In this document: positions 20,247 to 34,000 of the stretch, one piece after another | Layout of the letters: each line of letters starts with the position of its first letter | How positions within the stretch are numbered: position 1 is the first letter of the stretch | DNA from: Bolinopsis microptera | Lineage: Eukaryota; Ctenophora; Tentaculata; Lobata; Bolinopsidae | Assembly: GCF_026151205.1 (NCBI RefSeq) | Contig: NC_087084.1 | Location: 13,603,453 to 13,667,452, forward strand | DNA: 64,000 nucleotides | Direction: 5' to 3' | Notes under the pieces: model-generated | Database searches by the model: none | Told to the model about the DNA's origin: nothing | Seen by the model: only the letters and a program-made list of their open reading frames with translations | Made by a program: the position numbers and the translations under genes

Positions 20247-20744
20247 AGTAGTATATGATGCATTTTTCAATAGCCATTTTGGGAAAAAGTGGGGTACACA
20301 TAATGAAAGTAAGCATATTACGTAATGTTACCGGCGGCGTCCTTGTAATTAGTGGATATCATGTTCCATGTGGAAGCTATATTAGATGTAACTTGATTAT
20401 TACGTCATGTTCATTGCTCGCGGTACTTTTGTGATATTATCGTGTAACGATCTTACCAGATTAAAGTGGGCCAAAGTGAGGTAATAATGTGCCACCTGCA
20501 GCACGCTATCCTTATCCTATAAAGCACTTGAGTGACTTATTTAATCGTTTCTAGTGATTAATTTACACCAGCTGTCAATATAAACTGATTGATGCTGTTA
20601 AAAGTAAAACAAATTATTCGTAACTGGTTAGAAAAATAAATGGAAATGAATAAGTTTTTACGAATAGCATTAGCTGAATATTAATATTATTTACACAATA
20701 CACATCCAAAAATACGTTTTGACAGAATTGAATTAGGGTCTTAG
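20247..20744 (+). repeat. Outer element terminal inverted repeat, left
   Basis: 498 bp matching 33503-34000 in reverse complement with only a few differences. It ends exactly where the inner element inserted. The true inverted repeat continues on the far side of the insertion at 28956. Confidence 0.92.
20739..20744. repeat. Target-site duplication TCTTAG of inner element, left copy
   Basis: The second copy is 28950-28955. Removing one copy plus the inner element restores a junction identical to the uninterrupted right arm at about 33490-33510, proving the nesting. Confidence 0.95.
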
Positions 20745-22913
20745 AGTAGTATGTAATATGGTACCGCTGTATCACCTAAAAGTGAGGTACCAGTTTGACA
20801 GTTTCGACAAGAGGGGGGGGAGAGAGAGTGTGTGTGTGTGTGTGTGTGTGTGTGTGTGTGTGTGTTTGTGTGGGTGTATGTGTGTGCGCGTGTGTGTGTG
20901 TGTGTGTATATATACTGTTACTTTTATGGCGTGCCTTATTTTTTAGCTTGTTTTATTATTTACTTGAGTAAACAATTTAAAGTGCAACCGCTACACATAC
21001 CTATGACTTTTTGTGTTTATTTTCTGTAGTTTACTAATATTTCTGTTTTTTTGTCATATTTTTCTCGCAACTTTTTAGCTATAGCATTTTTTATCTTTTT
21101 TATCGGGACAGTTACGACTGAAACACAAATATTATTTTAGAATAAATTAAAAAGAATATTGAACAAAGTAAAATCGATACAATATATCACCACAAAATAA
21201 GCATTATTCAAGTCTAGCATGCAATATAGTTAATCAAAATTTCGTTTACTCACAATTTTTCAATAACTATCGCAAATAAGTGTCAATTACTCTAAATAAA
21301 GTTTAATAGGTAAACATTGATCCTATTCTCATTAACATTCTTAATAAAAACAACATTCATTTAATACTTACAAATTTTTGTGTCCATAACTCAAAGTACT
21401 AATACCATCGTCTAAAATAAATTTTTTATCGTCAAAACCAGAAAGTCCTCGTTTTTGTACTACAACACTAAAAATCTTGTTTCCAAAAACGCGAATTGTT
21501 TGTGACTTTGTCATCGTTGTTGACTGAGTATCTAATACGTTTCTGTAATCTTCATGTCGGATCCGTCTTTGAGCAGCTTTAGCTATCCCTTTGGCTGTGA
21601 CAGAATGTCCAATGAAACAAGATGAAGTGCATTCATGTTGTTCACTGCACCTGGTTACAAGCTTCTTTGTCATGACAGAGTACATTTTAGGCTTCAGAGC
21701 AATAACCTCACTAATTATTTCAGTCGGTTTCTCGTCTGAAAACTTCCCAGGCACTTTTTTGTTGGTGGGGTCATTAAATCTCGACAGTGGGGTATTCTCA
21801 ACGTAACCTGATAGATCCATAAGTTCACGTATACTGTATAGATCTTCGTACCCATTCTCTGCAAACACACCATAAATGAAGCTGTCCGTGTCACTTAGGA
21901 TGAGTTTTATTCTTTCACCATATTTCGGCTTTAGGACGTCATACCAGAACTCTCCCATGATATGTTTGGCATTTTCCAAAACGATAAATCCACAAGCAAT
22001 GGGTTTGTTTAGTACTAAGTTCCGCTTCACAGACTGTACAACAGTAGTTTGCTCATCCAGCATGTGAAATCCAATAAACTGCGGCTTAGAAGTGAGGCGC
22101 TTTGCAGATCTTTCATCTTTTACAATGTCAACATTAGTACGATTTCTCAAACTCTCGATAAACTTACCATAAATTGAATTGTTAGCAAGTTTAAAGAAGT
22201 CTTTTTCAAAATCGGACTTGGCATTTCGTCTTTTTACCGAGTTAAATTTAATGTATGGAGTGACAAAGTCTGTTTGATCCGCTGCCATAACTCGGTGAAT
22301 CTTTTCAAGAATCAACCCTTTGCTCAAACATAATTGGAGTGTCTTGAGGGAGCATACAAAATGCTTCTTATCTTTTAAATCGGGAACCAGTTTACGAGAA
22401 GACTTGAATTTTTCGTTGTGCATCTCCAAAAACGTTTTATTGTAGGGTGATAACTGATGCTCATAAATCATTTTGCTTTCCACAGCAAGAGGGAAGTCAT
22501 TGTGGTGATCGTGCAGATGTTTTGGATAATGTAGGTCAACTTCCAAAATATAGCAGGTGTCACCTTCGGGATCTAAATCACCAATATTCAACGATCTTAT
22601 TTCATTCTTACTAAGCCAACGGAAATTCTTACAGGGAAGCTTGAATGACATAGACTTTCCATACAGATTATTCGCATCGACATAGTGAATGAAAGATGTT
22701 GGTTTACTGCAATCGTAGTCATCCAAATATGGGTTGTTAGCTTTGAATTGACGATGATTGACAGTGGTAACTCCGCCCCGGAGATTTTTCTCTATAAATG
22801 TATACATATCGATATCAGTCATGTACTCAATATTGACTTTTGTCATCTTTAGCATAGCATCCCATGAAAATCCTGGCAAACTCATGTAATGACAGCAGTC
22901 AAGGCCGTAGTAA
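20745..22913 (+). repeat. Inner element long inverted repeat, left arm
   Basis: About 2.17 kb, nearly identical in reverse complement to 26694-28949. Over 505 shared codons only two amino-acid differences are seen. Most of the length difference comes from the (GT)n tract. Confidence 0.93.
20827..20910 (+). repeat. (GT)n microsatellite, short allele
   Basis: Interrupted GT tract in the left arm of the inner element; the equivalent in the right arm is far longer. Cys-Val open frames here are artefacts. Confidence 0.95.
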
Positions 22914-33031: not shown

Positions 33032-33514
33032 ATTAATCTTCTGCTGTCAATATTATTAGTTATGGACCGTTCCACACTTGCACAAATTCCTGAAGAATAT
33101 CAGGATATTTACAAAAGGAGTTGGAACACAATTAAAACGAGTGTGAGACAGGGTCGATTGAAAGATGTTTACCATTTTCCTATACTCACCATGGATAATA
33201 GTGCCATCTTAAGAAAAGCTGAAGAAGTTGTTTCAAAATACAACGAGAAGTTCAAAGTTAATGTGGCGTTTGGATTTATTCTCAAGGACAGGACTACAGA
33301 CGAACTAAAGTTCTTTCATCCGTCAAACAACACGATGCTGTTTATACTCCCTCGATTATTAGAAACTCCGTCTGATTATAGACAATTTGTTGAGGATATT
33401 GAGCAACAAGATTCCTTTGACTATGCTCGACTACACAGACCATCAACAAAATGGACTGTGGAAAGAATTGTGTGCGTACGATTTGATATTTATAGATTTA
33501 AACTAAGACCCTAA
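33032..33514 (+). pseudogene. Conserved accessory protein, right arm copy, start codon lost
   Basis: Almost identical to the left-arm copy and keeps the native C-terminus (…FKLRP, stop inside the terminal repeat). The ATG used in the left arm is ATT here (about 33032-33034). The next in-frame ATG is at 33062, removing the N-terminal hydrophobic stretch. It may still give a shortened product. Confidence 0.72.
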
Positions 33515-34000
33515 TTCAATTCTGTCAAAACGTATTTTTGGATGTGTATTGTGTAAATAATATTAATATTCAGCTAATGCTATTCGTAAAAACTTATTCA
33601 TTTCCATTTATTTTTCTAACCAGTTACGAATAATTTGTTTTACTTTTAACAGCATCAATTAGTTTATATTGACAGCTGGTGTAAATTAATCACTAGAAAC
33701 GATTAAATAAGTCACTCAAGTGCTTTATAGGATAAGGATAGCGTGCTGCAGGTGGCACATTATTACCTCACTTTGGCCCATTTTAATCTGGTAAGATCGT
33801 TACACGATAATATCACAAAAGTACCGCGAGCAATGAACATGACGTAATAATCAAGTTACATCTAATATAGCTTCCACATGGAACATGATATCCACTAATT
33901 ACAAGGACGCCGCCGGTAACATTACGTAATATGCTTACTTTCATTATGTGTACCCCACTTTTTCCCAAAATGGCTATTGAAAAATGCATCATATACTACT
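33503..34000 (-). repeat. Outer element terminal inverted repeat, right
   Basis: Reverse complement of 20247-20744, ending ACTACT directly before GACGTT at 34001. Confidence 0.92.

Follow-up and report, generated by a model that had tools for sequence, protein, structure and literature searches.

We analysed a 64,000-nucleotide window of the Bolinopsis microptera genome (C13:13603453-13667452) and searched the assembly it belongs to (264,652,675 bases in 232 contigs). The window holds two elements nested one inside the other, an outer element with small accessory genes and an inner element with a predicted type B DNA polymerase (polB), each bracketed by its own 6-bp target-site duplication. 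An original prediction had read the pair as complementary halves of one Polinton-like element. The features of the nest, and of a third element at the window's edge, are listed by window position (ORF, open reading frame; L009 and L016 are related loci elsewhere in the genome, and Z elements are taken up further below).

20241-20246, outer target-site duplication GACGTT, second copy at 34001-34006
20247-34000, outer element
20247-20744, plus strand, outer left inverted repeat of 498 bp, starting AGTAGTATATGATGCA, 99.6% identical to 33503-34000 inverted
20739-20744, inner target-site duplication TCTTAG, second copy at 28950-28955, single in L009
20745-28949, inner element of 8205 bp with end AGTAGTATGTAATATGGTACCGC, an inverted duplication with one arm short
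21368-25147, minus strand, polB ORF of 1259 codons opening with GTG; translation probably starts at MKRGPG, the point at which the consensus of its relatives begins
25135-26097, minus strand, 146-bp tandem promoter-like units, with seven TATA-like motifs CTATAAAAGGA between 25207 and 26097
26105-26695, plus strand, part of the core common to other polB elements and Z elements, by sequence comparison
26694-28949, plus strand, inner right arm, an inverted copy of the left arm's outer part, with a C-terminal part of polB (ORF 26722-28239)
28938-29447, minus strand, left copy of orf169; right copy at 33011-33514, plus strand
28950-30153, outer left arm with accessory module, inverse of 32305-33508 at 99.3%
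29494-30546, minus strand, two ORFs of 159 and 168 amino acids, a single 349-amino-acid ORF in the linear element L016
30654-31241, 19-bp minisatellite with the outer palindrome centre, orientation switch at 30887-30922, loop AGTG
31750-32305, plus strand, poly-A insert, a retroposon by its look, flanked by GATATGAGGACAGC, in the right arm only and empty in L009
32305-33508, outer right arm with accessory module, inverse of 28950-30153
33503-34000, minus strand, outer right inverted repeat, from self-comparison
62414-64000, minus strand, third, divergent relative, orf164 followed by polB exons, continuing past the window end

The octamer AGTAGTAT is present at all four ends of the two elements, as predicted. 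It occurs six times in the window and 10 of 100 shuffles also reach six, so a nest argued from the octamer alone stays within chance; the long repeats, the duplications and the copies elsewhere carry the case. The nest stands above chance because of the 498-bp outer repeats, the empty inner site in L009, and seven genome-wide inverted pairs of the exact 23-bp inner end AGTAGTATGTAATATGGTACCGC, whose reversed control gave 0 matches. L009 (C13:16155574-16160488) is paralogous to the window locus, with flanks 99.3-99.7% alike over 300 bp, and its inner-element and poly-A insert sites are both empty. Judging from these flanks, L009 is taken as the window's outer insertion carried along by duplication, which would make it a picture of the site before the inner element arrived and no independent insertion. 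The predicted nest, with its ends, duplications and positions, is borne out, as is insertion of the inner element directly after base 498 of the outer one. As side observations on this neighbourhood, 1695-1976 and 19627-19908 form an inverted repeat, and similarity to the flank of L009 ends at 19906 and picks up again at 1694, a pattern that would be seen if 1695-19908 were inverted relative to the L009 neighbourhood; window 6001-8000 has a strong strand asymmetry (GC skew 0.56, AT skew 0.36, GC 0.52).

Among the ORFs examined, the polymerase belongs to the inner element and the small accessory genes to the outer, again as claimed. The two are nevertheless not halves of one element, because their ends show no similarity past the octamer (self-comparison of the window, matches of at least 60 bp, E up to 1e-5) and each family has another half of its own. 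The neighbour at 62.4 kb, which had been held up as the joined polymerase-plus-small-gene set, does exist, but it is a third, divergent element that runs beyond the window; this minus-strand polB element covers 60400-64000 and is also seen at L041 and L042. We also looked at whether either element is a unique local rearrangement, and found both to be repeated families with separate insertion sites. The observation behind the prediction is thus confirmed and its interpretation partly supported: the split into separate halves fails for the window pair and reappears within the inner family, between polB and Z elements.

Self-comparison of the window revealed something absent from the prediction: both elements are inverted duplications. 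In the inner element, 20828-22913 is the inverse of 26694-28779 at 99.6%, with an unpaired stretch between. In the outer, 20242-20744 matches 34005-33503 inverted at 99.4%, and the centre, 30136-31752, is self-inverse at 95.9%.

The outer family recurs widely in this form. Genome-wide, its 498-bp end is matched at least 46 times (40 of the 58 candidates were scored). Palindromic elements with both ends read are L009, L010, L011, L012, L013 (first element), L025 and L026; L023/24 is palindromic judged by its pieces, L027 is palindromic with its right end not placed, and L015 has 541-bp inverted arms followed by the minisatellite. Linear elements also occur (L037, L016/17, L018-20 and L021/22), with inverted repeats of 75 to 311 bp; this classing leaves out the second element of L013/L014 and the one-ended L028, L038, L039 and L040. 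Perfect 6-bp duplications flank L009, L010, L011, L012, L015, L018/20, L021/22, L023/24, L026 and L037. Among the exceptions, both L013/L014 elements match at five of six bases, L016/17 has the duplication CAGCCT and a left end without its first three bases, and in L025 the second copy is interrupted by a nested insertion and reads TG|TATT. At C8:3423494-3436178 (L013, L014) two outer-family elements lie 615 bp apart, another insertion near a relative.

By its sequence, the outer family has its own polymerase: the linear element L021/22 carries polB exons at one end and an ORF of the 349-amino-acid type plus orf169 at the opposite end. The accessory module is near-whole (931-1204 of 1204 bp) at 10 loci, as six inverted pairs and four single copies (24 of 24 candidates scored; shorter fragments left out, including a broken pair at C8, and the L009 duplicate included among the pairs), and the outer-family polB exon occurs at four loci with 0 inverted pairs (a 312-bp match at 67% left out). 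Because the module is often paired and the polB exon never, the outer palindromes are the accessory end doubled. The ORFs at 29494-30546 are the outer-family relative of Z, with a C2H2 match below the Pfam cut-off. Two further observations concern orf169: a database search returned 251 stand-alone proteins like it (120 listed), many on 1-3 kb contigs, and the N-terminal region of the outer-family polB contains a 29% relative of it.

The turn point of the outer palindromes lies in the minisatellite, which we compared in the window and 14 loci (L014 is without units; L022 and L028 were left out). In linear L016, L020 and L021 it stands beside the accessory genes in a single orientation (20/0, 0/36 and 0/35 exact units). 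In the palindromes its orientation switches, and the junctions differ between elements: the window has the loop AGTG, L009 has the reverse complement of this loop, L012 has AATGATAAAA, L023 has none, and L011 has about 395 bp. L025-27 have a common longer stretch, so that one junction sequence is shared by three elements at separate places; L010 has a similar one, and L013 and L015 have others. L026 and L027 show three orientation switches each. The repeat unit contains ATTATTAATAAT, which is its own inverse. When 15 arms are placed in a tree, the palindromes fall into two groups and linear copies lie between them; 6 of 12 inner branches have full support, and support is weak for those separating linear from palindromic forms. 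We infer that the outer palindromes formed repeatedly, and their centres may have been remodelled later.

The inner family shows the same design around a polymerase gene. A polB DNA search gave 14 loci of note, with five inverted pairs (all 25 candidates were scored, and two matches shorter than 70 bp are not counted). Every polB element of the inner subfamily is palindromic (4 of 4, counting the window copy, which is without much of one arm). The other three are:

C9:662254-674315, 12,062 bp, duplication GACGTC
C7:6690411-6705670, 15,260 bp, duplication TACTTG
C9:6594451-6608817, 14,367 bp, duplication CTTGTT

The fifth inverted pair is a 565-bp match at C2, and five relatives at 77% carry a single polB each. 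The related elements L031/32, L033/34 and L035/36 are palindromes of greater length, so we read the window copy as a palindrome missing part of one arm; its origin as a direct copy-back of a linear parent is possible but not needed.

The polB frame is free of internal stops in all seven full-length copies (one read as two pieces, its border codon unread) and, in the three copies with two complete arms, it is open in each arm. Relatives that align at 54-82% identity still encode 1229-1338 amino acids, and the closest one assigned to a named organism comes from Mnemiopsis leidyi (57%). Some residues are invariant across 17 aligned sequences; we take these to be the exonuclease and polymerase motifs of type B enzymes. 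An endonuclease VII domain is matched by 8 of the 17 relatives and is also the sole solved-structure match.

Arms within an inner-family element resemble each other closely. Across 43 variable positions, paired arms were identical in 141 of 145 comparisons. Of 31 tested changes found in a single element only, 28 occur in both of its arms, and the exceptions are 2 of 25 from one of the C9 elements and 1 of 1 from C7; hence the arms were equal at integration or have been kept equal. Outer-family arms differ within an element at 6 (L009), 2 (L010), 1 (L011) and 4 (L012) of 1700 positions and at 8 of 1184 in the window, and between elements at 22 to 115 (L009-L010, L010-L011, L011-L012). The duplicates L009 and window differ at 6 of 1190, which does not exceed the difference between their own arms. 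The families also meet more than once: two of seven inner-family insertions lie inside outer-family elements (the window's, and a C7 element at the last bases of L025). If insertion were uniform, with outer-family DNA making up 122.6 kb of the 264.65 Mb, at least two such nestings would occur with a probability of about 4.5e-6, a rough figure made after seeing the case and from a lower bound on outer-family size.

Three Z elements, at C5:18059736-18070047, on C11 and at C12:15097586-15106053, have the same exact 23-bp end as the inner polB elements, the shared core and perfect 6-bp duplications, with no polB match. Their gene, Z, encodes a putative zinc-finger and coiled-coil partner of the polymerase (the coiled coil judged by eye), and the promoter-like units before polB and before Z are alike. 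Because polB-only and Z elements share end and core and have duplications of their own, the idea of a split gains support within the inner family. We tentatively suggest, at somewhat short of an even chance, a multipartite transposon, that is, a replicon of separately integrating palindromic segments, one with the polymerase and one with Z, having the same ends, promoter units and core. Each segment would be self-complementary, and therefore a single strand could fold into a ready duplex. Beside these elements we observed that a 729-bp piece of the inner core (L051:3264-3992) has copies at other places in the genome, most of them arranged in inverted pairs with a spacing of 3-11 kb. Similarity extends outward in three tested pairs, and the recurrences possibly represent further palindromic families; reading the piece as the end of an inserted transposon was rejected, as similarity continues outward past its boundary in three other elements. 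A small ORF beside Z (L063:89-244), by eye a putative LEM domain fragment, has DNA relatives at 73-87% elsewhere.

Taken together, we think it probable, if by a modest measure, that both elements are integrated palindromic polB elements with Maverick-type ends, made by copy-back of protein-primed linear DNA, the inner pair possibly being a two-segment replicon. The direct observations behind this are two like ends per element, 6-bp duplications, near-equal inverted arms, many sites, turn points in repeats and open polB frames. Replication would proceed on linear DNA, with a terminal protein as the primer. In a stretch prone to folding back, the minisatellite of the outer family or the core of the inner, the polymerase would turn back onto its own strand and yield a hairpin with one true end, and once this hairpin had been copied round, the result would be a complete palindrome carrying an origin at both ends. 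Every round of this kind would remake both arms from one, which we propose is why the arms stay equal. An integrase supplied in trans by a helper would then insert the palindrome. Outer-type palindromes, keeping the accessory end only, would be non-autonomous, and in the inner family polB and Z palindromes, with their common ends and core, could act together as two segments.

Several results weigh against this account. Neither element has an integrase among the ORFs scanned, which are part of all ORFs; the prediction had noted the same lack. Capsid, ATPase and protease also went without a match there, although distant forms could be missed (long interspersed nuclear element-type reverse transcriptases explain one long ORF each in L016 and L019). 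With neither integrase nor capsid among these ORFs, mobilisation in trans remains a proposal. Pfam found no polymerase domain in the whole 1259-amino-acid ORF, only endonuclease VII below the cut-off; PF03175 scored 24.3 on the C-terminal polB copy against a cut-off of 25.8 and was found in 1 of the 17 relatives. A genome-wide search with the exact inner end returned no linear element that could have served as parent to the inner palindromes. An exact palindromic centre of at least 24 bp was present in 0 of 13 sequences tested. The Z evidence consists of 4 kb of sequence from C11, the coordinates and 30-bp ends of the C5 and C12 elements, and a further 421 bp from C12; in the C5 element the core is rearranged. 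Loci at C10 and C13 hold both polB and a single Z, with the C-terminal side of polB facing Z, unlike the polB palindromes, where that side faces the element end. Finally, gene conversion in the integrated element could explain why the arms are equal, and deletions at the centre of an old palindrome could explain why the junctions differ.

The most durable alternative accepts the copy-back origin, and so overlaps with our reading, and denies only a working system: the palindromes would be dead-end relics like defective viral genomes, and the sharing between polB and Z elements would be recombination. We regard this as a real but minority possibility. It gains from outer palindromes that lack polB, from the curtailed arm of the window's inner copy, and from the C10 and C13 loci, where Z modules are 94-96% alike beside polB genes only 66% alike, so modules have been exchanged between families. 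It has more difficulty with the uninterrupted polB of all seven full copies, the length kept by diverged relatives, and the like promoter units before polB and Z.

Less well placed, and in our view unlikely, is an origin of the palindrome once or a few times, after which chromosomal gene conversion equalised the arms and deletion trimmed the centre, with no role for replication. Long inverted repeats do undergo gene conversion, and the weak tree support for a split between linear and palindromic forms suits such a history; the unequal centre arms (L031 1100/1403 and L035 1651/1389 of core) fit deletion and copy-back equally. The presence of linear and palindromic forms with both end types, the differing junctions, and the junction stretch common to three elements at separate places count against it. 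Head-to-head insertion of two elements, or a chromosomal inversion after integration, is very improbable: the inverted repeat at 1695-1976 and 19627-19908 lies nearby, but the entire palindrome is bracketed by a single 6-bp duplication, and elements built in this way are found at many sites. Missed adapters create palindromes in some long-read data, but an assembly artefact can hardly account for palindromes that end at element ends, arms that differ by real changes, and insertions in one arm only (the left arm holds the inner element, the right arm the poly-A insert).

Returning to copy-back of protein-primed elements, the closest integrated counterparts are Polintons/Mavericks, whose vertebrate set has 6-bp duplications, the end motif (AGT)2//(ACT)2, inverted repeats and a type B polymerase (PMC8097293). 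The elements here share the first three, the duplications with exceptions at L013/L014, L016/17 and L025, and their families carry a predicted polymerase of this type. They differ in having no integrase, ATPase, protease or capsid in the ORFs scanned, in being palindromic as whole elements, and in placing the inner-family polB and its partner gene on separate elements; with integrase and capsid missing, we do not file them as Polintons. A search of the literature, with most subscription literature outside its reach, found no report of palindromic Polintons or Mavericks. Nor were free relatives confirmed among viral contigs (one search gave no match, a pattern search gave 37 matches of which none was confirmed, and records near the species' own genome may be omitted).

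Bidnaviruses and the bidna-like Vesanto virus are described as having a Polinton-type polB and a segmented genome with similar inverted ends, the second segment being proposed to stem from gene replacement between conserved ends (PMC4061559, PMC8363768, PMC11071296). The inner family likewise has polB and Z on separate segments with conserved ends. Theirs are virus segments with other genes, whereas ours are chromosomal palindromes with duplications, and no Pfam match to an SF3 helicase or a parvovirus-type capsid stood beside polB in the ORFs scanned. If our reading is true, the genome holds a chromosomal record of protein-primed linear replicons becoming palindromes, one of them possibly becoming two segments, a step that has been proposed for segmented polB viruses (PMC4061559) and is hard to observe. 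Arm divergence would further offer a clock for each insertion, as with long terminal repeats, provided that the arms are not being equalised by conversion.

Copy-back defective genomes and symmetric adenovirus recombinants likewise duplicate one end inversely and lose the other; the elements here differ in being inherited and integrated, with the polymerase frame open in both arms. The outer palindromes, too, correspond to one end of a linear parent, as comparison with linear L016 and L020 shows. The same relation is said to hold for the hairpin plasmids of Kluyveromyces lactis, reportedly described by Kikuchi in 1985 as palindromic or hairpin derivatives of one end of a protein-primed linear DNA. 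Those plasmids are free, not integrated, and are not a set of segments, and by analogy they would be the nearest mechanistic precedent for the elements described here.
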